A stretch of 64,000 nt of DNA from Nocardioides exalbidus (GTDB lineage: Bacteria; Actinomycetota; Actinomycetes; Propionibacteriales; Nocardioidaceae), in assembly GCF_900105585.1 (NCBI RefSeq), contig NZ_FNRT01000002.1:3348001-3412000 (forward strand). The letters are read 5' to 3'. Of this stretch, positions 46,821 to 59,403 are shown one piece after another. Each line of letters starts with the position of its first letter. The first letter of the stretch is position 1. Both the position numbers and the translations under genes were made by a program. The notes beneath the pieces were generated by a model. The model worked only from the letters and a program-made list of their open reading frames with translations. It ran no database searches and was not told the DNA's origin.

Positions 46821-48596
46821 ATGCCGCACAACCAGGGTGCGCTGCGCCGGCTGGCGGAGCTGATGCGCCGCGTGAACTCCTCCACCGACACCGAGGTGAT
46901 CCTCGAGGAGATCGCGCACGGCGTGGTCGACGTCCTCGGCTACGGCGTGGCCGCGATCGCCCGGCTCGACGGCGACACCCTCGTGATGACCAACGTCGCC
47001 GGCCCGCCGGAGGTCGTCAGCCAGATCCTGCACCGGCGCACGCCGGCCGAGCAGATCCTCGACGAGTTCCGCGAGGCCGACAAGTGGGGCATCCTCCGCT
47101 TCGTCCCCGCCGGCCGGATGTCGGAGGAGCGCCTGCGTGCGGCCTGGATCCCCGACTTCGAGCCCGCGGCGGACCCCGACGCCTGGCACCCCGAGCACGC
47201 GCTCTACGCCCCGCTCTACTCCGCGAGCGGCGAGCTCCTGGGCAACATGGCGGTCGACCTCCCGGCCGACGGCAAGGTGCCGCACGAGGCCGATCGCGAG
47301 CTGCTGGAGATGTTCGCGGTGCAGGCCGGCGTGGCGCTGTCCAACGCCCGTGAGCGCGAGCGCCTCACCGACCGTGCCCGGCTCGACCGGATGCTCACCA
47401 CCGTCGCCGGTGCCGGCACGCACCAGGGGCTGGCCCAGGCGCTCCGCACCGGGGTCGGTGCCGTCGGCGACGCGCTGGGGGCGGTGGTCGCGTGGGTGCG
47501 GACGTTCCCGACCGACGCCCAGGGCAGCCAGCTCGGCGCGGCGTGGCCGATGGCCTTCACCGCGGAGCTCGACCTGCCCGAGGTCCGCGAGGACCTGCTC
47601 GCCCTCGACCTGCGGCCCGTGGTGCTCGAGCTCGAGGCGGGCGACAGCGGGTCCGACCTGCTGCCCCGCAGCGCCAAGGGCCTCCGCGAGGTGATGCACG
47701 GCCTGCGCGCCGAGCGCCTGGTCGTGTGCCCGCTCGTCTCCCAGGACGACCTGGTCGGCTACCTCGTGCTCGCTCACTCGCGCAACGCACCCCTGCTGAC
47801 CCAGGTGGAGACCGATGCGGTCCTCGAGGTCGCGCGGCTGCTGGCCCAGATCGTGCGTGCCTCGCGGGTCCTCGAGACCGAGCAGCGTCTCGTGCAGGAG
47901 CTGCGCGAGCTGGCGCGCTACCGCAGCGAGCTGATCGCCACCATCTCCCACGAGCTCAAGACACCGCTGACCGCGATCCTGGGCCACGCCGAGCTGATCT
48001 CCGACCGGCACCCGGAGCTGACCTCGATCGACGCGATCATCCGCAACGCCGGCCGGCTCAGCAACCTCGTGGCCAACCTGCTCCACTACTCCCGCATCCA
48101 GGGCCGGCGCGAGACCGTGCGTCGCGCGGTCGACCTCGCCGAGCTGTGCGAGGCCAGCGTCGACCTGCTGGAGATCCGGGCCAAGCAGGCCGGGGTCCGC
48201 CTCGAGTTCCTCAACTCGGGGTCGCCGCCGGTCATCGTGTTCGGCGACCCCGAGGAGCTCGCCCGGGTCATCGACAACATGGTCGACAACGCCGTGAAGT
48301 ACACGCCCGAGGACGGCTCGGTGACGGTGGCGATGACCGTGGGCGACGACGAGGTGAGTGTCGACGTCAGCGACACTGGCATCGGCATCTCCCCGGCCGA
48401 CCAGGGCCACGTCTTCTCCGCGTTCCACCGCTCGACCAACCCCAACGCGCTCTCGATCCCCGGCACCGGGCTCGGCCTGCCCATCGCCCAGCGCATCGCC
48501 GAGTCCCACGGCGGCGCCCTGACGCTGACCTCACAGCTCGGTGCGGGCAGCACCTTCCGGTTCACCTTGCCGCTGCGCTCGCCCCGGGACGACTGA
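46821..48596 (+). CDS. Soluble GAF-domain sensor histidine kinase
   Basis: This 591-residue kinase has no membrane segment. Two GAF-like sensor domains (about 20-185 and 200-355) precede a HisKA dimerisation domain with the phospho-acceptor His in ISHELKTPLTAILGHAEL (about 378) and an ATPase domain with N box VDNAVKY, G1 DTGIGIS, F box FHRS and G2 GTGLGLPIAQRIAESHGG. It should respond to a cytoplasmic signal, possibly redox or a bound ligand. No response regulator is adjacent, so it is an orphan; the convergent neighbour is the cytochrome bd operon, and the reading frames overlap by 66 bp. ATG 46821 follows GGAGG. Confidence 0.9.
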   Translation: MPHNQGALRRLAELMRRVNSSTDTEVILEEIAHGVVDVLGYGVAAIARLDGDTLVMTNVAGPPEVVSQILHRRTPAEQILDEFREADKWGILRFVPAGRMSEERLRAAWIPDFEPAADPDAWHPEHALYAPLYSASGELLGNMAVDLPADGKVPHEADRELLEMFAVQAGVALSNARERERLTDRARLDRMLTTVAGAGTHQGLAQALRTGVGAVGDALGAVVAWVRTFPTDAQGSQLGAAWPMAFTAELDLPEVREDLLALDLRPVVLELEAGDSGSDLLPRSAKGLREVMHGLRAERLVVCPLVSQDDLVGYLVLAHSRNAPLLTQVETDAVLEVARLLAQIVRASRVLETEQRLVQELRELARYRSELIATISHELKTPLTAILGHAELISDRHPELTSIDAIIRNAGRLSNLVANLLHYSRIQGRRETVRRAVDLAELCEASVDLLEIRAKQAGVRLEFLNSGSPPVIVFGDPEELARVIDNMVDNAVKYTPEDGSVTVAMTVGDDEVSVDVSDTGIGISPADQGHVFSAFHRSTNPNALSIPGTGLGLPIAQRIAESHGGALTLTSQLGAGSTFRFTLPLRSPRDD

Positions 48597-51500
48597 CTCC
48601 GCAAGCCTCGCCGGCGAGAGGTGCACGACCCGGTCCATCCGGTCGAGGCCCACCGTGCCGTGGGTGATCCACACGACGGAACGACCGGCGCGGGTGGCCG
48701 ACTCGATCAGGCCGGTCGCGACGGCGCGCGCGGTCGGGCCGTCGAGGTGGGCGGTCGGCTCGTCGAGCACCAGCACCGCGGGGTCGGCGAGCAGCGAGCG
48801 GGCGAGCGCCAGCCGGGCGCGTTCGCCTCCCGAGACCTCACGGGACCCCGCACCGACGTGCGTGCCGATCCCGTCGGGCAGCCCGGCCACCCATGGGCCC
48901 AGGCGGGCCGCGGTCAGGGCTGCGCGGACCTCGTCGTCGCTCGCGCCGGGCCGGGCCAGCCGGACGTTCTCGGCGACCGTGGAGGCGAAGACGTGGGGGT
49001 CGTCGTCGACCAGCCCGACGGTGCGGCGCACGTCATCGAGCGTGAGACGGCGCAGGTCGACCGCACCCGACTCGACGGGGCCCAGTCGTACGTCGCCCGC
49101 GACCGGGTCGATGAAGCGCACCAGCGTCGCGGCGAGCGTCGACTTCCCGCTGCCCGAGGCGCCGGTGACCCCGACGTGCTCGCCGGCGCGGAGGGTGAGG
49201 TCGAGCGAGAGCACGGGCACGTCGTCCCACCCGAGTGCGACCTCGTCGAGCACGAGGTCGTGGGTGCCGGGCAGTGGATCGGGGACGGCCGGTGAGAGGA
49301 CGGCCGGAGCGGTGGCCGAGAGCCGGTCGAGCCGCCGGCGTGCCGCCCGCGCGCGCACGGAGAGCGCGCCCGCGTCGGCGAGCCCGGACGTCACGTCGGA
49401 CAGGGCGAGCGGGACCAGCAGGAGGAGGGCCAGCAGGGCGGGGGAGACCCGTGCCGGGTCGACCAGCGTCGCGACCGCCACGACCCCAATGCCGGCCGCA
49501 GCCGTGGTCAGGGCAGCACCGGCAGCGCTCGCGCGGGAGGAGCGTCGTACGGCGTCGGAGAGGGCGGTGGACTGCTCGTCGACCAGGCGGAGTGCGGCCT
49601 CCGTAGCGCCCCACTGCTCGAGCTCGCGCAGGCCGTGCGCGACCTCCTCGACCCGGGTGCCGAGCGCGGCCCGGTGGGCGACGACGGCTGGCTCGGCGGT
49701 GGCCGCCCCGCGCCGGGCGAGGAGGAAGGCCACCACCCCGGTCGCGACGACGGCGGCGACCACGACTCCGGCCGTGGGGGCGACGAGGCCGGCGAGGACC
49801 GCCGCGGCCACGCCGACGAGCGCCGCGGTGACGACGGGCTGGCGCACCCGGAGGCGCTCGTCGAGCAGCGCGTCGACGTCGTCGACGACGCTCGTGAGCA
49901 GGTCGCCGCGACGCGGGCCGAGCCGGCCGGGCACGAGCGGGACGAGGTCGGCGTACACGCGTGCGCGCCGCTCGGCCAGCTCGCGCAGGACCACGTCGTG
50001 GCTGAGCACCCGCTCCGCGTGCCGCAGCACGGGACGGGCGAGGCCGAAGAGCCGCACACCCACGATCGCGACCATCAGGTGCAGCACCGGCGGCTGCTCG
50101 CTCGCCCGGGTGATCAGCCACCCGGCGGTGGCGGTGAGGGCGACACCTGATGCGGTGCTCAGGGCGCCGAGGAGGGTCGCGGTGCCGATGCCCCAGCGGG
50201 GTAGTGGGTCGTCCTCCTCGGCCGCGACCACGGAGGGCGTCGGCGCAGGGGTCGGGTCGGGAGCGGCCACGGGCGCGGGAGAGGGTGCGCGGGCCGCCGC
50301 AGGGGCCAGCGTGACCACCCGGTCGGCGGCGTCGAGCACGGCCGGACGGTGCGCGACGACGAGCACCAGGCTGGTGCGCGCGAGCAGCGTCAGCGTCTCG
50401 ACGAGGACCTGCTCGGTCTCCTCGTCGAGGTGGGCGCTCGGCTCGTCGAGCAGCACGACCGGGCGGCGTGCCAGCACGACCCGGGCCAGGGCCACGCTGG
50501 CGCGCTGGCCGGCCGACAGCCCCGCGCCGTCCTCGCCGAGGACGGTCGCGAGCCCGTCGGGCAGGTCGCGCACGACGTCCGCGAGCCCGACGCTCGCCAG
50601 TGCCGACCAGACCTCGTGGTCCCCGGCCTCGGGGCGTCCGACCCTGACGTTGGCGGCGATCGTGTCGGGGAGCAGCCACGGCCGCTGCGGAGCCCAGGCG
50701 ACCTGGGCCCGCCACCACGCGGGATCGACCTCGGGGAGCGGCGTGCCGCCGACCAGCACCTCGCCGGAGGCCGGCGGCAGCTCGCCGCGCAGGGTGGCGA
50801 GGAGGGTCGACTTCCCGCACCCGGACGGACCGGCGACGGCGACGAGCCCGCGCTTCGGGAGGGCGAGGTGGAGGCACTCGGTGAGCGGCTCGTCGTGGCC
50901 GACCCGGAGGACGGAGAGGGCCAGCCGGGTGCTGGTGGGTCGCGCGGTGCCGGTCGCGGTCGACGAGGCGGCGGCCAGCAGCGCGTCCGCGTCGGCGAGC
51001 GCGGCCGTGCCCTCGGCAGCGGCGTGGAACTCCGCGCCCACGCGGCGCAGCGGCCAGTAGGCCTCCGGCGCCAGCAGCAGCACCGTCAGCGCGACCTGGA
51101 AGTCCACCGATCCGGAGGCGAGCCGCAGGCCGACCGTCACCGCGACGAGGGCGACCGACAAGGTGGCGACCAGCTCGAGCACCGACGAGGAGGCGAAGGC
51201 GACCTTGAGGGTGTCGACGGTGGCGCGGCGGTAGCGGTGGGTGACGGCGCGGATCGTGCCCACCTGGGCGTCCGCGCGTCGGTGGGCGACCAGGGTCGGG
51301 AGCCCGCGCACGACGTCGAGGAAGTGCCCCGACAGCACCTCGAGGGCGCGCCACTGGGCCTGTGCGCGGTCGCGGGTGGTCATTCCGACGAGGATGGCGA
51401 AGACCGGGACGAGCGGGAGGGTCAGCGCCACCACGAGCCCGGAGAGCGGGTCGAGCCAGGTGATCGCGGCCAGCGTCACGACCGGCAGGACGACGGCCGG

Positions 51501-51893
51501 GACGAGGGCCGGGAGGTAGCGGGTGACGTAGGGCTCGACCCCGGCGACACCGCGGGTGGCGAGCACCGAGAGTCGTGAGGGGGAGACGTCCCCGCCCCGG
51601 CGCGCGGCCCTCAGCAGCCGGTCTCGCAGTGCCTCGGAGACCTGCCCGGCTGCGCGTGCGGCCGCGCGCTGGGCGGCGTACGACGTCGCGGTGCGGAGCA
51701 GCACCAGCGCGACCAGCCACCACCCGGCCGTCGTCCAGTCGTGCCCGCCGACGGCCGCGACGACCAGCGCCGCGAGCGCGAACGCCTGGGCGACCGTCGC
51801 CAGGCCGCCCGCGACCCCGCTCGCGACGACGAGCGCGAGCGCCCGTCGCGCGGGCAGCAGGTGGGGGAGCGTCTGCCGGTCGAGCGGCCTCAT
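48531..51893 (-). CDS. cydDC: Fused CydDC thiol ABC exporter for cytochrome bd assembly
   Basis: This 1,120-residue protein joins CydD and CydC, normally separate, in one chain. The exporter moves cysteine/glutathione-type thiols and is required to assemble cytochrome bd. First ATPase: GPSGCGKSTLL, LSAGQRASVALAR, VVLLDEPSAHLD. Second: GASGSGKSTLAA, VSGGERARLALAR, AVLVLDEPTAHLD. Both sites keep the catalytic Glu. Each half begins with a six-helix membrane domain. ATG 51893 overlaps the cydB stop (ATGA). The C-terminal end overlaps the convergent histidine kinase gene by 66 bp. Fused CydDC is a known actinobacterial form. Confidence 0.93.
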   Translation of the reverse strand: MRPLDRQTLPHLLPARRALALVVASGVAGGLATVAQAFALAALVVAAVGGHDWTTAGWWLVALVLLRTATSYAAQRAAARAAGQVSEALRDRLLRAARRGGDVSPSRLSVLATRGVAGVEPYVTRYLPALVPAVVLPVVTLAAITWLDPLSGLVVALTLPLVPVFAILVGMTTRDRAQAQWRALEVLSGHFLDVVRGLPTLVAHRRADAQVGTIRAVTHRYRRATVDTLKVAFASSSVLELVATLSVALVAVTVGLRLASGSVDFQVALTVLLLAPEAYWPLRRVGAEFHAAAEGTAALADADALLAAASSTATGTARPTSTRLALSVLRVGHDEPLTECLHLALPKRGLVAVAGPSGCGKSTLLATLRGELPPASGEVLVGGTPLPEVDPAWWRAQVAWAPQRPWLLPDTIAANVRVGRPEAGDHEVWSALASVGLADVVRDLPDGLATVLGEDGAGLSAGQRASVALARVVLARRPVVLLDEPSAHLDEETEQVLVETLTLLARTSLVLVVAHRPAVLDAADRVVTLAPAAARAPSPAPVAAPDPTPAPTPSVVAAEEDDPLPRWGIGTATLLGALSTASGVALTATAGWLITRASEQPPVLHLMVAIVGVRLFGLARPVLRHAERVLSHDVVLRELAERRARVYADLVPLVPGRLGPRRGDLLTSVVDDVDALLDERLRVRQPVVTAALVGVAAAVLAGLVAPTAGVVVAAVVATGVVAFLLARRGAATAEPAVVAHRAALGTRVEEVAHGLRELEQWGATEAALRLVDEQSTALSDAVRRSSRASAAGAALTTAAAGIGVVAVATLVDPARVSPALLALLLLVPLALSDVTSGLADAGALSVRARAARRRLDRLSATAPAVLSPAVPDPLPGTHDLVLDEVALGWDDVPVLSLDLTLRAGEHVGVTGASGSGKSTLAATLVRFIDPVAGDVRLGPVESGAVDLRRLTLDDVRRTVGLVDDDPHVFASTVAENVRLARPGASDDEVRAALTAARLGPWVAGLPDGIGTHVGAGSREVSGGERARLALARSLLADPAVLVLDEPTAHLDGPTARAVATGLIESATRAGRSVVWITHGTVGLDRMDRVVHLSPARLAESVVPGRAQRQGEPEGAARTEL

Positions 51894-52906
51894 CGCGCCT
51901 CGGCCAGCTCCGCGTCGGGGATGTGGTGCACGGCGATCCGCTTGCGGAAGACCCAGTAGGTCCACGCCTGGTAGCCCATCACGATCGGCGTGAAGACGAC
52001 CGCGACCCACGTCATCACCTTCAGCGTGTACGCCGTCGCGGCGGCGTTGGTGGTGGTGAGGGAGTACGCCGGGTCGGTCGTCGACGGCATCACGTCGGGG
52101 AACAGCGCGAGGAAGAGGCCGAGGACCGCGAGGCCGATGGTGACGAACGTGCCGGTGAACGCCCAGCCCTCACGCCCGGCCTGCGCTGCGCCGAGGCCAC
52201 CCACGAGCGACAGGGCGGCGACCACGAAGACGACGGCGGACGCGGCCGAGCCGGTCCTCACCTGGGTCCAGGCCATGTACACCACGGCCAGCACGGCCGC
52301 CACGGCCCCGATCCGGACGGCGAGCTTGCGGGCGCGGTGCCGGATCTCGCCGTCGGTCTTGAGCGCGACGAACATCGCGCCGTGCGCCGCGAAGAGGGTC
52401 AGCATCACGAGACCACCGAGCAGTCCGAACGGGTTGAGCAGGGTCAGCATGCTGCCGGTGAACTCCTTGTCGGCGTCGATCGGCACCCCGGCCGCGATGT
52501 TGGCGAACGCGACGCCCCACAGCAGCGACGGGACGAGCGAGCCCCAGAAGATCGCCAGGTCCCAGCGCGCCTTCCAGCGGGCGTCGTCGCGCTTGTGGCG
52601 GTACTCGAACGACAGCCCCCGCACGATCAGGGCGACCAGGATCAGCAGGAGCGGCAGGTAGAACCCGCTGAAGAGGGTGGCGTACCACTCCGGGAACGCG
52701 GCGAACGTGGCGCCGCCGGCGACGAGCAGCCACACCTCGTTGCCGTCCCAGACGGGGCCGATGGTGTTGATCATGACGCGACGCTCGGTCTCGTTGCGGG
52801 AGAGCACGGGCAGCAGCATGCCCACGCCGAAGTCGAAGCCCTCGAGGCAGAAGTAGCCGATCCAGAGCAGCGCGATCAGGGCGAACCAGACGGTGGTGAG
52901 CTCCAT
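51890..52906 (-). CDS. cydB: Cytochrome bd oxidase subunit II
   Basis: This 338-residue membrane subunit has about nine hydrophobic helices and begins with MELTTVWFALIALLWIGYFCLEGFDFGVG, the family hallmark, followed by RVMINTIGPVWDGNEVWL. It pairs with CydA in the quinol oxidase used at low oxygen. The longer upstream frame is discarded: ATG 52906 with GGGACCTCCC context sits 35 bp after cydA. Its stop overlaps the start of cydDC. Confidence 0.96.
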   Translation of the reverse strand: MELTTVWFALIALLWIGYFCLEGFDFGVGMLLPVLSRNETERRVMINTIGPVWDGNEVWLLVAGGATFAAFPEWYATLFSGFYLPLLLILVALIVRGLSFEYRHKRDDARWKARWDLAIFWGSLVPSLLWGVAFANIAAGVPIDADKEFTGSMLTLLNPFGLLGGLVMLTLFAAHGAMFVALKTDGEIRHRARKLAVRIGAVAAVLAVVYMAWTQVRTGSAASAVVFVVAALSLVGGLGAAQAGREGWAFTGTFVTIGLAVLGLFLALFPDVMPSTTDPAYSLTTTNAAATAYTLKVMTWVAVVFTPIVMGYQAWTYWVFRKRIAVHHIPDAELAEAR

Positions 52907-52941: not shown

Positions 52942-54360
52942 TCAGTAGGCGAAGGTCAGGGGACGGTCGTCGTCGGCGCCGCCGACCGTGACGTCCGGCG
53001 GTTCGACGAAGGGGTCGGCGCCCTTCCTGATGTAGGTGACGAGGAGCTTCATCTCGATCACGAACAGGACGGCGTAGAGGAGCGTCAGCACGATCAGCGA
53101 GGTGGCGGCCTCGAAGACCGAGACGCCGGGGGAGACGGCGTCCTCGGTGCGCATCAGGCCGAACACCACCCAGGGCTGGCGGCCCATCTCGGTGAAGATC
53201 CAGCCCCACGAGGAGGCCAGCGTGGTCGCGATCGGCAGCGACAGCCCGAGCCAGCCCACCCACCGCACCGACGGCGTACGCCCCCTGCGGGTCAGCCACA
53301 GGATCAGCGCGGCGCCCGCGGCGGCGAACATGCCGAGGCCCATCATGAAGCGGAAGGACCAGTAGGTCACCGGGATGACGGGCGTGTAGTCGGCCTCGCC
53401 GTAGGTCTGGGAGTACTCCTCCTTGAGCGGGTTGATGCCCTGCACCGTGCCGTCGAAGGAGCCGGTGCCGAGGAAGGACAGCAGGCACGGCACCGTGATC
53501 GCGAACTTCTCGTGCTCACCGTCGGGCGTGCCGACCGTGAGGACCGAGAACGGTGCACAGCCCTCGCTGGTCTCGTAGAGCCCCTCGGCGGCCGCCATCT
53601 TCATCGGCTGGACCTCGGTCATCACCTTGCCCTGGAGGTCGCCGGTGACGGCCACGCCGATGCCCGCCAGCAGGGTGATCGCGGCGCCGATGCGGATGGC
53701 CCGGTGGTACATCGGGCGGTCGGCCTCGTGCTTCCGCCTCATGTAGAGGTACGCCGAGACGCCGAGCAGGAAGGCGCCGGCGGTCATGTAGGCGGCGAAG
53801 ATCACGTGCGGGAACGTCACCAGCTGGACCTTGTTGAACATCACCGCCCAGAAGTCGGTGAGCTCGGCGCGACCCGACTCCTCGTTGAAGCGGTAGCCGA
53901 CCGGGTGCTGCATCCACGAGTTGGCCGCGAGGATGAACCACGACGAGGCGAGCGTGCCCACGTGCACGGTCCACATGCAGGCCGCGTGCAGGCCCCGGGG
54001 GAGCTTGTCCCAGCCGAAGATCCACAGGCCGAGGAAGGTCGACTCCATGAAGAAGGCCAGCAGGCCCTCGATCGCGAGCGGTGCGCCGAACACGTCGCCG
54101 ACGAAGCGGGAGTAGTCCGACCAGTTCATCCCGAACTGGAACTCCTGCACGATCCCGGTCACCACGCCGATGGCGAAGTTGATGAGGAAGAGCTTGCCGA
54201 AGAACTTCGTCAGCCGGAGGTAGTCCTCGTTGCGGGTGCGCACCCACGCGGTCTCCAGGCCGGCGATGACGGCGGTCAGTCCGATGGAGAGCGGGACGAA
54301 GAGGAAGTGGTAGACGGTGATGATCCCGAACTGCCAGCGAGCGATGTCGAGGACTTCCAT
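52942..54360 (-). CDS. cydA: Cytochrome bd oxidase subunit I
   Basis: This 472-residue subunit binds haems b558, b595 and d and oxidises quinol. It shows RWQFGIITVYHFLFVPLSIG with the haem-ligand His, GIVQEFQFGMNWSDYSRFVGDVFG and GWIFTEMGRQPWVVFGLMRTEDAVSP. The Q-loop is of the short type. ATG 54360 is preceded by GAAGGG; six extra codons upstream are possible but less likely. It is the first gene of cydA-cydB-cydDC, and the region upstream shares two BlaI-type dyads with the divergent blaI gene, suggesting repression by it. Confidence 0.96.
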   Translation of the reverse strand: MEVLDIARWQFGIITVYHFLFVPLSIGLTAVIAGLETAWVRTRNEDYLRLTKFFGKLFLINFAIGVVTGIVQEFQFGMNWSDYSRFVGDVFGAPLAIEGLLAFFMESTFLGLWIFGWDKLPRGLHAACMWTVHVGTLASSWFILAANSWMQHPVGYRFNEESGRAELTDFWAVMFNKVQLVTFPHVIFAAYMTAGAFLLGVSAYLYMRRKHEADRPMYHRAIRIGAAITLLAGIGVAVTGDLQGKVMTEVQPMKMAAAEGLYETSEGCAPFSVLTVGTPDGEHEKFAITVPCLLSFLGTGSFDGTVQGINPLKEEYSQTYGEADYTPVIPVTYWSFRFMMGLGMFAAAGAALILWLTRRGRTPSVRWVGWLGLSLPIATTLASSWGWIFTEMGRQPWVVFGLMRTEDAVSPGVSVFEAATSLIVLTLLYAVLFVIEMKLLVTYIRKGADPFVEPPDVTVGGADDDRPLTFAY

Positions 54361-54399
54361 GGCGACCCTTCGGAGCACGAGTGTTGATCGAGGAGGGAT

Positions 54400-54437
54400 T
54401 ACTACGACTTGTAGTAGATACTACGCCGTGTCGTAGT
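54400..54437. promoter_or_regulatory. Two BlaI/MecI-type operators between cydA and blaI
   Basis: Dyad 1 is TACTAC-N5-GTAGTA (54400-54416). Dyad 2 is ACTACG-N6-CGTAGT (54420-54437). Their centres are about 20 bp apart, two helical turns. BlaI/MecI operators have the form TACTA...TAGTA around TACA/TGTA half-sites. Dyad 2 lies in the -35 region of blaI, and dyad 1 lies 40 bp upstream of cydA, so one repressor could control both directions. Confidence 0.8.
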
Positions 54438-54453
54438 TCGTGGCGAAGTGGCC

Positions 54454-54459
54454 TAGACT
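54454..54459 (+). promoter_or_regulatory. -10 box of blaI (leaderless)
   Basis: TAGACT lies exactly 7 nt before ATG 54467. No ribosome-binding site precedes this ATG, so the message is probably leaderless. The -35 position coincides with the right arm of the second BlaI dyad. Confidence 0.6.
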
Positions 54460-54466
54460 TCCCGCC

Positions 54467-54829
54467 ATGAGTCCGAGGTCGCGCATGGGTGAGCTGGAGC
54501 AGGCCGTGCTGGAGACCCTCTGGGACAGCGCCGGTCCCGCCAGCGGCCGGCAGGTCCACGAGCGCCTCGCCGACCGCGACCTCGCCTACACGACCGTGAT
54601 GACGGTGCTCGACCGGCTGGTCGCCAAGGACGTCGTCGCCCGCGAGCGCGACGGCCGCGCCTTCCGCTACGCACCGCGCCGCAGCCGGGCCGCGATGACC
54701 GCCGACCTCATGCACGAGGCGCTCCAGGGCACCGGCGCCGACCGCGACCAGGCCCTCGTGTCGTTCGTCGGCGAGGCCAGCGCCGACGACCTCGCCGCCC
54801 TGCGGCGCGCCCTCGCCGACCTGACCTGA
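54467..54829 (+). CDS. blaI: BlaI/MecI-family repressor
   Basis: This 120-residue repressor has the winged-helix domain of the BlaI/CopY family: MGELEQAVLETLWDSAGPASGRQVHERL, AYTTVMTVLDRLVAKDVVARERDGRAFRYAP, and a short C-terminal dimerisation helix bundle ending DLAALRRALADL. Such repressors are inactivated by cleavage by an M56 peptidase, and one is encoded 10 bp downstream. Two matching operators lie upstream, beside the cydA promoter. The likely target is its own operon plus cydABDC rather than a beta-lactamase, since none is present. Confidence 0.92.
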   Translation: MSPRSRMGELEQAVLETLWDSAGPASGRQVHERLADRDLAYTTVMTVLDRLVAKDVVARERDGRAFRYAPRRSRAAMTADLMHEALQGTGADRDQALVSFVGEASADDLAALRRALADLT

Positions 54830-54839
54830 CGGGCTGCCC

Positions 54840-55709
54840 GTGCTCACCCCTGTCCTGCTGGGGGCACTCGCCGTGCTGCTGGCCGGACCCTTCCCCTCGC
54901 TGCTGTCGCGCTGGTCGCGCCTGAGACGTACGCCGGCCGCGGCGATGCTGTTGTGGCAGAGCACCGCGCTTGCCGCCGTCCTGGCGGCCCTCGGCGCCGG
55001 GCTCTCGCTGGCGACCGACCGGCTCTGGACCCCGCCGATCGCGACCGCCGACCTCGTCGTCGCCGTCCTCGCCGGGGCGTTGACGCTGATCGTCCTGGCC
55101 CGGCTGCTCCTCAGCGCGCACCGCACCGGCACCGAGCTGCGACGGATGCGCCGGCGCCACCGCGAGCGCGTCGACCTCGTGGCCCGCGTCGACGGGGGAG
55201 TGTCGGTGCTAGAGCACGACCTGCCGGTCGCCTACTGCGTGCCCGGGATGACCGGCTCGCGGATCGTCGTCTCCCGCTCGACGCTCACCCGCCTCACGCC
55301 CGACGAGCTCGGTGCCGTCCTCGACCACGAGCGCTCGCACCTGCGCGCGCGTCACGACCTGGTCCTCGAGGCCTTCGCCGTGCTGCACCGTGCCTTCCCG
55401 CGCTGGGTCGCGAGCGGTGCCGCCCAGCACGAGGTCGAGGTGCTGGTGGAGGTCCTCGCCGACCGCGCCGCCGTACGCTCCGGCGACCGGCGCGCGCTCC
55501 TGGCCGCGCTGGTCACGCTCGCGGGCTCGGCGGCGCCCGCGGGCTCGCTGGGCTCGGCCGGGTCGTCACTGGTGGCGCGCGTCGAGGTGCTCCGTGACGA
55601 CGAGCCGCACCGGCTCCAGTCGGTCTCCGCGGTGGTGCTCGCGGCGGCGATCCTGGCGCTCCCCACGGTCCTGGTCGTGCTGCCCTGGCTGACGGGGCTG
55701 CGGGACTAG
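54840..55709 (+). CDS. M56-family (BlaR1-like) membrane metallopeptidase
   Basis: This 289-residue membrane protein has about four hydrophobic helices (near 2-20, 36-57, 68-90 and 263-284) and a cytoplasmic zinc-peptidase segment with LDHERSHLRARHD (HExxH), preceded by CVPGMTGSRIVVSRSTL and followed by a conserved VEVLVEVLADRAAV. It lacks the extracellular penicillin-sensor domain of true BlaR1, so the signal must come through the membrane helices or another protein. Probably it cleaves BlaI. GTG 54840 lies 10 bp after the blaI stop, typical blaI-M56 coupling in actinobacteria. Confidence 0.88.
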   Translation: MLTPVLLGALAVLLAGPFPSLLSRWSRLRRTPAAAMLLWQSTALAAVLAALGAGLSLATDRLWTPPIATADLVVAVLAGALTLIVLARLLLSAHRTGTELRRMRRRHRERVDLVARVDGGVSVLEHDLPVAYCVPGMTGSRIVVSRSTLTRLTPDELGAVLDHERSHLRARHDLVLEAFAVLHRAFPRWVASGAAQHEVEVLVEVLADRAAVRSGDRRALLAALVTLAGSAAPAGSLGSAGSSLVARVEVLRDDEPHRLQSVSAVVLAAAILALPTVLVVLPWLTGLRD

Positions 55710-55784: not shown

Positions 55785-58700
55785 TCAGCGAACGACCCTG
55801 AACGTCATCTTCTCCTTGCTCTTCCTCACGTCCTTGCTGCCCTTGTAGGTCACGACGAGCTTGTGCTTGCCGATGGCGTAGTCCTTGCGCACCATCAGCA
55901 CCAGTCGGCCCTTCTTGAGCTTCTTGGTCGCGACCTTCTTGCCGTCGATCTTGACGACGACCTTGCCCTTCGGCTTCTCGCCCTTCGCCTTGACCTTCAC
56001 GACCACCTTGAAGTCCTCGCGGAACTTCGGCTTGGCCGGGACGATCTTGGCGTCGGTCTTCGACTTCGCCTTCGGCTCGGACGGCGGTGTCACCTTGTCC
56101 TTCACCGTCACCTTGACGGTGCCGGACGAGGCCTTAAACCCGCCGTTGCCTGTGTAGTTGACCGTCAGGACGTGGGTCCCGACAGGCAGGTCCGCCGGCA
56201 GTGCGACAGATGCCTTGCCGCCGCTCAGGGCAGCCGATCCGAGCTTGGTGCCGTCGGCCTTGAGCACGTCGACCGAGCCGGTCGGGGTACCTGTCGTCGC
56301 GGCCACCGTGACGTCGATCTTCGACGCCGTACCGAACTCGGACGGCTCGGGGGTGTGGATCGCCGTGACCGTGGTGTTGGTGTCGTCGCAGACCGTCACC
56401 GACACGTTGTCGACGTACCATCCGTCGACGCCGCCGCATCCGTCACGGCCCATGTCGAAGCGGATCTGGATGGTGTCGCCGACCTTGGCGCCGGCCGCCT
56501 CGAGGTTGACCTGCGAGTTGCCCCAGGAGCCGGTCGCTCGGCCCGGGTTGGTCCCGCTGAAGCCGGGCTCGCCCGCGAGCGGGTTGGTGTTCGTCCCGTC
56601 GTTGGTCAGCGTCGTGTTCGGTGCGTTGAACACGTATGCCGATGCCGGGATCGGGGCGAAGTCACCTCCGTTGACGCTCAGCTTCACGTTGCCACCGTCG
56701 TAGCCCGCCTCCGTGGAGACGTAGTGGTCGAACGAGAGACGCAGTGCCTTTCCGGACGGCACCAGGATCGCCGGGCTGGTGATGGCGTCGCTGCTCGAGA
56801 TGTCGTTGGCAGCGCAGTCACCGGCGTCGGGGTCGGCACCGAAGGCAACGCGACCGACGTTGTCGCGCCCCGGGTAGACAGCGGTGGAGCGCCACGGGTA
56901 GTGGTTCTCACCCTCGGAGCTATCGGTCCAGGCAGAGATACCGGAGTCGAAGTTGTCGCTGAAGACGACCCGGCTCGTGGTTCCCTCACCGCACAGAGTC
57001 GGCGCGGGGCCCTTATCGAGCAGCGGCTTCCACTGGCACTGGACGGTCGGGTCGGTGCGCAGCTCGACGGCCGCCACCACCTTGGTCACCTGGGCGCAGT
57101 CGTCGGCCGTGATCTCGTCGGCGAGGCCGGGTTCGGCGTCCTGGGTGACGGTCAGCTCGTTGATGGGCTCGCCGGTCAGGTCCGAGCAGGCCTGCTCGAG
57201 AGAGTCGGCGTGGTCCACGAAGTCCGACGTCGGGCCCATGTAGTTCTGGGCGTAGAAGTAGATGTTCGCAGCCTTGTCGATTCCCAGTCCGCGAACCGTC
57301 TGGCCGTTGTAGGTACCTCCGTCGACGAGCAGGGCGTAGCCGTGGTTGGGCACGGCCGAGTTGCCGTGGACACCGCCGTTGTCGTCGGACGTGCAGTAGT
57401 ACTCAGCGTCCGAGACCTTGCCCGGGTCGCCGTAGCACGTCGGATTCCACATGTCGCGGATCGCGCCGCCGAAGGCCGGAGACTTCTCACCGATCAACCA
57501 GCGGTAGGAGTCGAACGCGTTTCGCGGCTGCTCCTTGACCGTCAGCGACACGGCGCCTGCGGACTTGATGCGGGTGCCGTCGGCCTGGCTGACCATCACG
57601 CCGTAGATGTCCGGGTAGTTGCCGGACACCGAGACAGCGCCGGGCCCGGTGTTGCCGAAGACGATGCCGGTTGCGTCAGTGGCAAGCACGTTCTTGACCT
57701 TGAGCGCGAACGCGCAGGTGCCACGGTCGACGTAGGCCCACTTGCCCGCCAGAGCCGCTGCGTTGGTGATGGTCGAACACCCGTCTGTGGTGCTCGGACC
57801 AGCCTGGTCCGATGCGTCGGTGGCCACCACGACGTCCGCAGTGACGCCCGAGGGCGTGAACTGAGGGCCGAATGCAGCAGGTGCCGCGCTCGCGCAGTCC
57901 CCGGCCACAGCTGCCGGCGAGTTGATCGTTGCGGTCACGCCCCCACGCGTGTGGGTGGAGCACAGCCCGTCGGGGCGCTTCGTGGTCAGGTTGCCCTCGC
58001 CCTCGTCCTCGCGGCCGTTGAGCAGGTCGACGGTCTCCCCCCAGATGTCGGAGTAGGCCTCGTTGAGGGCACCTGACTGCCACTGGTAGATCAGGCCGGT
58101 CTGGTACTCGGTGTAGGCGTGTCCCCACTCGTGCGCCACGACGTCGTCGGCGTAGACGCCGTCGCAGTAGCTGGTGTAGGAGCCGTTCCACGAGGCGTTC
58201 GGGCAGGCGTCCGGACGGTTGTGCAGTGTGGTCCGGGTACCGCCTTCGTTGTCGTAGGAGTCAATGCCCCACGTGTTGAAGTGCATCCAGTACGACTCGG
58301 CGGAGGAGTCCATCAGGTTCTGCTGGTCCTGGTTCATGACCGACGGGTCGTCGCCCTCTGCCCAGACAGGGGATACGGCGACCTCGCCGGGCGCGTCCCC
58401 GTCGTGGGCCGGGTCGTCCGGGTCGTAGTTCGTCGTGTAGAGCTCGCGGTCGAGGTCGTCGGCCATCATCGAGAAGCGGTTGATGGGCTTGAGGGTGTTC
58501 GCGTCCAGGATGACCCGGTCGCGGATCGAGCCGCTGTCCTTGGTGACGTTGGACACCTCGAGGTCGTAGGCCAGGACAGCCTTGCCCTGCTCGCCCTTGA
58601 CGACGCCCTCGCGGTAGATCACGAGGTTGTTGGACACGGCCTTGACGCCCTCGGTGGAGACGACGCTGCCGTCCTCCTTCGTGGCCGGGTCGCCCTTGAC

Positions 58701-59222
58701 GACCATGACCGCGCGCTCGGCGGCGGCGGTGGCCGACTTCGCCGGTGTCACGCTGAGGGACAGGTCGGGTGCTGCGAAGCCCGTGACCGCGGTGAGGTCG
58801 CCGTCGTCGGCAACATGGGCCTTCAGTTCGCCGGCCCACACGGGAACGCCCTTGTAGGACTGCTGGTAGGAGACGGTCCACCCGTAGGGCGTCGTCGAGA
58901 CGCCGGTCTGGGTCAACTCGCCGGACCTGGCACCGAAGAGAGAGGCGTACTTGTCGACGTAGGCGTCGGCCTTGGCGCCGGCACTCGTCGCGTCAGAGGC
59001 CTGGCGAGCGGGCATCAGGTCGCCCTTCGTCCGGACGAAGCCGATCTCGCCCGATGCCGCCTGGTCGGTGACAGTGACAGACCTGTCGGCCTGGTTGCGC
59101 AACTGCGAGAGCAGCGATGCGTCGGCACTGGGTGCCGCTGATGCCTGCATCCCGAGCGTGGGAAGGGCCGCCAGGCCCGCCCCTACGACTGCGAGTGCAA
59201 GCCCCCTGTTGAGGAGCTTCAC
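55785..59222 (-). CDS. Large secreted M4 zinc metallopeptidase with PA insert
   Basis: This 1,145-residue secreted protease starts with a signal peptide (KLLNRGLALAVVGAGLAALPTLGMQASA) and an FTP/PepSY-type propeptide region (about 40-220). The M4 catalytic domain has HEWGH near residue 360 and GALNEAYSDIWGE near 385. A PA domain (about 440-545) is inserted before the second half, which contains NGGVHGNSAVPNH with the thermolysin-type active-site His. C-terminal parts include a beta-sandwich with paired Cys (about 745-930) and two Ig-like repeats rich in Lys. GTG 59222 is chosen over ATG 59237 because GGAGG lies 8 nt upstream of GTG. It probably digests environmental protein. Confidence 0.9.
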   Translation of the reverse strand: MKLLNRGLALAVVGAGLAALPTLGMQASAAPSADASLLSQLRNQADRSVTVTDQAASGEIGFVRTKGDLMPARQASDATSAGAKADAYVDKYASLFGARSGELTQTGVSTTPYGWTVSYQQSYKGVPVWAGELKAHVADDGDLTAVTGFAAPDLSLSVTPAKSATAAAERAVMVVKGDPATKEDGSVVSTEGVKAVSNNLVIYREGVVKGEQGKAVLAYDLEVSNVTKDSGSIRDRVILDANTLKPINRFSMMADDLDRELYTTNYDPDDPAHDGDAPGEVAVSPVWAEGDDPSVMNQDQQNLMDSSAESYWMHFNTWGIDSYDNEGGTRTTLHNRPDACPNASWNGSYTSYCDGVYADDVVAHEWGHAYTEYQTGLIYQWQSGALNEAYSDIWGETVDLLNGREDEGEGNLTTKRPDGLCSTHTRGGVTATINSPAAVAGDCASAAPAAFGPQFTPSGVTADVVVATDASDQAGPSTTDGCSTITNAAALAGKWAYVDRGTCAFALKVKNVLATDATGIVFGNTGPGAVSVSGNYPDIYGVMVSQADGTRIKSAGAVSLTVKEQPRNAFDSYRWLIGEKSPAFGGAIRDMWNPTCYGDPGKVSDAEYYCTSDDNGGVHGNSAVPNHGYALLVDGGTYNGQTVRGLGIDKAANIYFYAQNYMGPTSDFVDHADSLEQACSDLTGEPINELTVTQDAEPGLADEITADDCAQVTKVVAAVELRTDPTVQCQWKPLLDKGPAPTLCGEGTTSRVVFSDNFDSGISAWTDSSEGENHYPWRSTAVYPGRDNVGRVAFGADPDAGDCAANDISSSDAITSPAILVPSGKALRLSFDHYVSTEAGYDGGNVKLSVNGGDFAPIPASAYVFNAPNTTLTNDGTNTNPLAGEPGFSGTNPGRATGSWGNSQVNLEAAGAKVGDTIQIRFDMGRDGCGGVDGWYVDNVSVTVCDDTNTTVTAIHTPEPSEFGTASKIDVTVAATTGTPTGSVDVLKADGTKLGSAALSGGKASVALPADLPVGTHVLTVNYTGNGGFKASSGTVKVTVKDKVTPPSEPKAKSKTDAKIVPAKPKFREDFKVVVKVKAKGEKPKGKVVVKIDGKKVATKKLKKGRLVLMVRKDYAIGKHKLVVTYKGSKDVRKSKEKMTFRVVR

Positions 59223-59403
59223 GTGGTCTTCCTCCATGAGTGGTTCGCCCCGACCCGAATAGTGGGGTGACCCGGCTCACCCTAGGCACCGTCCGTTCGG
59301 TCAGGAACCCCCCTGCGTTCGATTTTTCGTCATCGAAACATCCGGCGGGAAGATCTGCGGCGCTCGGCACGGCCGCTGGACGCACTCGCGTGCGACACGC
59401 ACT

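Follow-up and report, generated by a model that had tools for sequence, protein, structure and literature searches.

A BlaI-M56 pair without a penicillin sensor as the probable switch for cytochrome bd in Nocardioides exalbidus

Introduction

What does a BlaI-type repressor regulate, together with its partner membrane protease, when their genes adjoin those of cytochrome bd oxidase in divergent orientation? The question is raised by a locus of Nocardioides exalbidus contained in the stretch of DNA analyzed here (64,000 nucleotides, positions 3,348,001 to 3,412,000 of contig NZ_FNRT01000002.1; hereafter the window), in which blaI and a gene for an M56-type protein diverge from cydA. The pair resembles the staphylococcal systems BlaR1-BlaI and MecR1-MecI in the BlaI family membership of its repressor, in the pairing of the genes, and in a membrane protein with four helices and an HExxH protease. 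It differs from them in having no C-terminal penicillin-binding sensor, in facing a respiratory oxidase as its target, and in a putative operator of the form TACTAC-N5-GTAGTA.

A connection between BlaI and cyd is already known for Mycobacterium tuberculosis, whose BlaI is reported to bind the cyd promoter (PMC5473688, citing Sala 2009) and to repress Rv1303 (PMC12565901). An earlier sequence-only reading of the N. exalbidus locus had cited mycobacterial BlaI as a reported regulator of energy genes, and PMC5473688, which places it at the cyd and ATP synthase promoters, agrees. What is new here is the hard-wired locus, its co-evolution, and its alternation with Rex; among titles and opening lines of abstracts in the open-licence literature, none described a blaI-M56-cyd locus of this dedicated kind, the co-evolution of its parts, or an alternation with Rex. 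In mycobacteria, cytochrome bd is reported as the basis of tolerance to respiratory drugs (PMC5874750).

The BlaI-M56 Pair and the cyd Genes

The cyd genes occupy the minus strand. Subunit I of the oxidase is encoded by cydA (52942-54360; PF01654, E = 7.6e-165) and subunit II by cydB (51890-52906; PF02322, E = 6.1e-114, and TIGR00203). Next to them, cydDC (48531-51893) is one fused frame of some 1120 residues, the CydD half preceding the CydC half, and both halves pass their NCBIfam cut-offs (TIGR02857 and TIGR02868).

On the plus strand, blaI (54467-54829) encodes a winged-helix repressor of the BlaI/MecI type with 120 amino acids. It belongs to the family by its match to PF03965, which spans the winged-helix and dimerization domain (E = 1.2e-26; 93.7 bits against a cut-off of 22.6), and it is the only PF03965 match in the genome. 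A profile of 13 BlaI relatives matched PDB 2g9w best (E = 9.2e-45), a structure that we take to be Rv1846c of M. tuberculosis, followed by the penicillinase repressor 1sd4 (3.4e-11) and by MecI (1.1e-9). The C-terminal arm of BlaI has S-F at the stretch aligned with the site of cleavage by BlaR1, which we take to be N-F in the C-terminal arm of the Staphylococcus aureus repressor and which presumably falls here on S99-F100; F100 is invariant (13 of 13), and the residue before it is variable.

The M56 gene (54840-55709, plus strand) begins 10 bases after blaI and encodes a sensorless M56/M48-like membrane metalloprotease of 289 amino acids, which matches PF01435 above the cut-off (E = 1.2e-9) and PF05569 just below the curated one (E = 1e-6). 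The protein has four hydrophobic segments, with HERSH at residues 163-167 and with E204, in the BlaR1/M56 layout that puts HExxH between helices 3 and 4. Ahead of the active-site motif, an alignment of M56 proteins (A1) has an invariant P-x-A-Y-C-x-P motif containing C133. A C-terminal extracytoplasmic penicillin-binding domain is absent: the protein stops at about the end of the fourth transmembrane helix, at residue 289, and therefore has no beta-lactam sensor domain, just as the sequence-only reading had claimed. When an AlphaFold model of middling confidence (mean pLDDT 72.8) was compared by VIA-align, BlaR1 chains led the list, the best of them being residues 1-288 of S. aureus BlaR1, the portion before the sensor, with a Z score of 7.7, which is below the level that settles homology. 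A Foldseek search with the same model returned nothing at E < 0.001, and its BlaR1 match was weak (probability 0.33). By its motif, its topology and the order of the VIA-align matches, the M56 protein is BlaR1-like in layout and without a penicillin sensor. A similar pair is the BlaI-BlaR of M. tuberculosis (Rv1846c-Rv1845c): the profile of BlaI matches 2g9w, and the BlaR homologue is reported to be sensorless (PMC5473688). Facing the M56 gene from the minus strand is a large secreted-looking metallopeptidase of the M4/M36 type with PA and Ig-like domains (55785-59237).

Tandem Dyads between blaI and cydA

The space between the two divergent genes is exactly 54361-54466, bounded by the ATG of cydA at 54360 (minus strand) and that of blaI at 54467 (plus strand). 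Two dyads of the BlaI type had been proposed to lie within it, and both are there. Dyad 1, TACTACGACTTGTAGTA (54400-54416), is a perfect 6-5-6 dyad, matching at 12 of 12 positions, and is the genome's only exact site; dyad 2, TACTACGCCGTGTCGTA (54419-54435), matches at 11 of 12 and may alternatively be drawn at 54420-54437 with a six-base spacer. The two, which have no strand and start 19 bases apart, are probable BlaI operators. Their distance from the start of blaI is roughly 30 to 70 bases, and the predicted palindromic operator is thus present at blaI's own promoter.

Thirteen dyad matches with three mismatches or fewer were found in the window, against 1.59 expected. At 11 of 12 or better, the window holds the two tandem dyads only, and 100 order-1 random sequences of equal length held none. 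Across the 4.6-Mb genome, a single additional site with at most one mismatch was found (C2:4203064), and it lies within a coding frame. Sites with at most two mismatches numbered 37 in the genome against 232 in a reversed control; neighborhoods were inspected for five of the 37, and the class was dropped as unreliable. One dyad with two mismatches, ahead of an nrdR-like gene (C2:614572, L214), was left uncounted because it resembles what we take to be an NrdR box, which is its more likely identity.

How do the dyads stand to the promoters? A candidate -10 element of cydA, TAGTAT (54418-54423, minus strand), lies between the dyads and overlaps them, and was recognized from conservation in seven close relatives. 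The candidate for blaI, TAGACT (54454-54459, plus strand), is contained in a stretch that reads AGTCTAG on the minus strand and is kept in 7/7 close relatives, the window included; it ends only 7 bases before the ATG, so that blaI may be leaderless. The putative -10 elements thus sit between or beside the dyads. Because a sigma-70 consensus scan of the cydA-blaI promoters found no standard promoter, the covering of these promoters by BlaI is something that we infer. Among the seven close relatives (again counting the window), the half-sites of the dyads are kept and the five-base spacers and flanks diverge. Over all loci, 19 is the commonest spacing of tandem dyads (49 of 82).

Co-inheritance of the Dyads and blaI

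Exact dyads occur in 38 of 149 genomes of the family, and in 26 of 29 dyad loci of relatives the dyad is flanked by cydA and blaI within 1.5 kb. A dyad-independent test began instead from cydA matches in 148 genomes and comprised 105 cydA loci, 36 from earlier sets and 69 newly taken, a dyad being scored at 10 of 12 or better within 400 bases. The dyad and an adjacent blaI were both present at 57 of the 105 loci and both missing from 48, with no mixed case, and M56 accompanied them at 56 of the 57. The dyads are therefore conserved in all relatives with the same gene order (57/57), which favors the earlier proposal that they tie the pair to cytochrome bd.

How independent are these observations? 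Mapped onto a tree of CydA, blaI requires nine changes and so does the dyad, in identical rows. When only well-supported branches were considered, 5/5 independent pairs were concordant (sign test, p = 0.0625). Since the dyads adjoin blaI in the divergent layout, one rearrangement could remove dyads and blaI together.

Linkage in Other Gene Orders and BlaI in Trans

A scan for CydA across lineages gave 80 loci, 79 of them with a usable upstream region (L092, with 34 bases upstream, was dropped). All 16 loci with BlaI in the locus carried a dyad of at least 10/12 upstream of cydA, compared with 10 of the other 63. Fisher's test gave p = 2.5e-10 when the tree was disregarded, and a tree-based sign test gave a median p of 0.03. 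The weakest dyad row is that of Kytococcus (L105), with 10/12 at -99 and no site in the genome with one mismatch or fewer. The position of blaI varies: it is divergent from cydA in Nocardioides, Aeromicrobium and Kribbella, upstream of cyd and codirectional with it in Serinicoccus, and at the distal end of the cyd cluster in six Intrasporangiaceae loci (Terracoccus, Phycicoccus, Knoellia and Janibacter). Because the linkage of blaI and cyd has been kept through such rearranged gene orders, it argues for a function in common rather than a chance neighborhood. Some Micromonosporaceae carry a further, more distant cydA, which has BlaI-M56 as its partner and a dyad (L210, L211 and L213; also L307 and L310).

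The BlaI of M. tuberculosis is a trans-acting regulator of blaC, sigC, atp and cyd, whereas the sole BlaI of N. exalbidus is divergent from cydA and its genome has no other exact site. We also searched dyad-bearing genomes in which blaI is not adjacent. All 14 own a PF03965 gene elsewhere, exactly one in 11 of them, and in seven that gene has a dyad (at least 10/12) before its own start; in the other seven, no dyad was found at the promoter of blaI. Presence of PF03965 by itself was rejected as a discriminator, as 10 of 14 genomes without cyd dyads also match, two only marginally. It is conceivable that a different regulator binds the dyads and that blaI is a mere neighbor, but this is scarcely credible given that in 7/14 genomes a BlaI gene situated elsewhere is itself preceded by this dyad and that co-presence of blaI and dyad is exact in 105/105 loci. 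In genomes without cyd dyads, three blaI upstream regions (L298, L300 and L320) have instead a different dyad, resembling TACGATG-N3-CATAGTA, which suggests a second operator specificity among the BlaI genes of such genomes.

Probable Respiratory Control rather than Antibiotic Resistance

Because it lacks the penicillin sensor and lies back to back with the cyd genes, and because its putative operators are conserved in relatives, the pair most probably governs respiration and not resistance to antibiotics. The same claim in the sequence-only reading is thereby well supported, with dyads at every one of the family loci that have an adjacent blaI. Could the locus instead mediate an ordinary beta-lactam response, in which M56 senses cell-wall damage, BlaI controls a beta-lactamase, and the nearness of cydA is incidental? 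The family names BlaI and BlaR recall such a role, seven proteins of the PF00144 serine hydrolase/beta-lactamase family are encoded in the genome, and in M. tuberculosis BlaI is reported to control blaC as well, with cydAB rising under amoxicillin-clavulanate (PMC5473688). Set against this are the missing sensor domain of the M56 protein, the co-inheritance of blaI with the cydA dyads, and the lack of any dyad with one mismatch or fewer at genes other than cydA and blaI, the remaining site being intragenic. Moreover, no adjacent or co-regulated beta-lactamase came to light: a search of the genome for class A beta-lactamases (PF13354) found none, and no further non-coding site has one mismatch or fewer. 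We consider a beta-lactam response very improbable.

What can be observed in the sequence is the dyads, the gene order, the missing sensor, the single BlaI, the co-inheritance, and the self-directed dyads of trans-acting BlaI genes. From these, it is likely, and we hold with some confidence, that the sensorless BlaI-M56 pair represses and releases cydABDC. A dimer of BlaI would bind the tandem dyads and, as these cover the likely promoter cores, would repress both divergent units, cydABDC and blaI-M56. Upon failure of the main respiratory route, the four-helix M56 protease, although sensorless, would become active and would remove BlaI, most likely by cutting the C-terminal dimer arm as BlaR1 does. 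Loss of BlaI would release cydABDC and blaI-M56 jointly, and fresh synthesis of BlaI would then reset the switch. Since the genome's only BlaI faces cydABDC, this appears to be a one-target system, whose signal could be found by plain reporter assays.

Alternation with Rex and a Possible Membrane Signal

Which signal would the M56 protein read? Rex is an NADH-sensing repressor whose operator is unlike that of BlaI. In Streptomyces, Rex acts on the same gene, cyd; it is an unrelated repressor, and a Rex site takes the place of the BlaI dyad. We scanned for Rex-type sites, scored as matches of 11/14 or better to the Rex consensus. Among the 79 upstream regions of cydA, 26 had a Rex-type site, 26 had a dyad, none had both, and 27 had neither; in the family set, a Rex-type site was found at 6 of the 48 dyad-less loci and at 0 of the 57 dyad-bearing ones. 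Within Nocardioides and Aeromicrobium, tree neighbors differ in having a dyad or a Rex-type site. As a statistical result, the alternation was set aside: the hypergeometric p of 2e-6 takes no account of the tree, and on the tree the sign test gave p = 0.5 to 1. Both trees show no more than about four origins of Rex-type sites, and the alternation is for this reason a pattern that is not significant alone. It suggests two independent solutions to the problem of choosing a backup oxidase.

The alternation is one ground for supposing that the pair is a functional stand-in for Rex, with the helices of M56 sensing how the membrane stands in redox or energy terms (the menaquinol pool, the proton motive force or low oxygen). 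A second is provided by dyads away from cyd in relatives, which lie near an MFS transporter (L201, and L203 by sequence) that we read as NarK-like, near PPDK (L202), near a pyridine nucleotide-disulphide oxidoreductase (L198), and beside proteins that we judge by look to be DoxX-like and that have no Pfam match (L196 and L205). No sensing residue or domain was identified in the M56 protein, however, and the four independent origins of Rex sites deprive the alternation of significance on the tree. We regard a membrane signal as having a real chance, though short of an even one. The sequence-only reading had suggested that the pair may sense membrane or quinone state; its respiratory part is well supported, and its choice of signal is one candidate among others: in view of the cyanobacterial system PetR-PetP, copper or the status of the terminal oxidase is at least as good a candidate.

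Copper as a Possible Signal

PetR-PetP likewise consists of a BlaI-type factor and a BlaR1-type membrane protease and is reported to swap plastocyanin and cytochrome c6, electron-transport metalloproteins, in response to copper (PMC7896320; PMC13421787). By gene order and conservation, the locus of N. exalbidus has the same type of arrangement, a BlaI with a sensorless BlaR1-type protease linked to a gene of an electron-transport swap. In PetRP, copper plastocyanin is exchanged for heme cytochrome c6; in N. exalbidus, the swap would be from copper-dependent aa3 to copper-free bd. Differences would lie in the petE and petJ targets of PetR-PetP, in its copper signal, and in a PetR that both represses and activates. 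By analogy, PetRP suggests that the signal is copper or oxidase status.

The signal might accordingly be copper itself or a breakdown of the bc1-aa3 branch, which depends on copper, with heme-only bd replacing aa3. Consistent with this are dyads away from cyd in some relatives near genes for CopC and a P-type ATPase (L065) and for CtaG/CopD (L195), and the invariant C133 ahead of the protease motif in alignment A1. In M. tuberculosis, moreover, SigC is reported to belong to the BlaI regulon (PMC8265638), to serve copper supply and, when mutated under copper starvation, to leave cyd raised (PMC7924339). The polarity is wrong, however: copper activates PetP, and with BlaI as a plain repressor cyd would then rise with copper. 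The copper-linked dyads are in addition few, are found in one genome each, and are absent from the genome of N. exalbidus. A copper signal is possible but, in our judgment, somewhat unlikely. Similarly tentative is our conjecture that, in Actinomycetes, sensorless BlaI-M56 takes the role at cytochrome bd that Rex has elsewhere, as a protease-driven terminal-oxidase switch and a counterpart of PetRP, reading copper supply or bc1-aa3 failure through M56 (perhaps by way of C133), and that the penicillinase role is a later offshoot. If that reading were true, it would also supply the missing signal of the mycobacterial BlaR; how a sensorless BlaR is switched on is a question raised for M. tuberculosis in PMC5473688.

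Other Dyads Away from cyd

Dyads away from cyd in relatives also lie near a DsbA-like thioredoxin (L064) and near Pyridox_ox_2 proteins (L037 and L206). We rejected this wider set of sites as proof of the signal, since the sites are scattered, some fall within genes, and none was seen in more than a few genomes; we treat them as hints only. Their theme is respiration and redox, to which we attach little weight: the sites are few, and other dyads adjoin genes without such a theme. Pfam searches of three short frames (L068, L199 and L207) gave no match; these, together with L066, are membrane-protein-like frames from several genera, with exact dyads just upstream of them or at their start. Recurrent exact dyads in family f5 adjoin a DUF4383 membrane protein (L225 by Pfam; L051, L057 and L061 by look), and one precedes the gene for a small protein without a Pfam match (L224).
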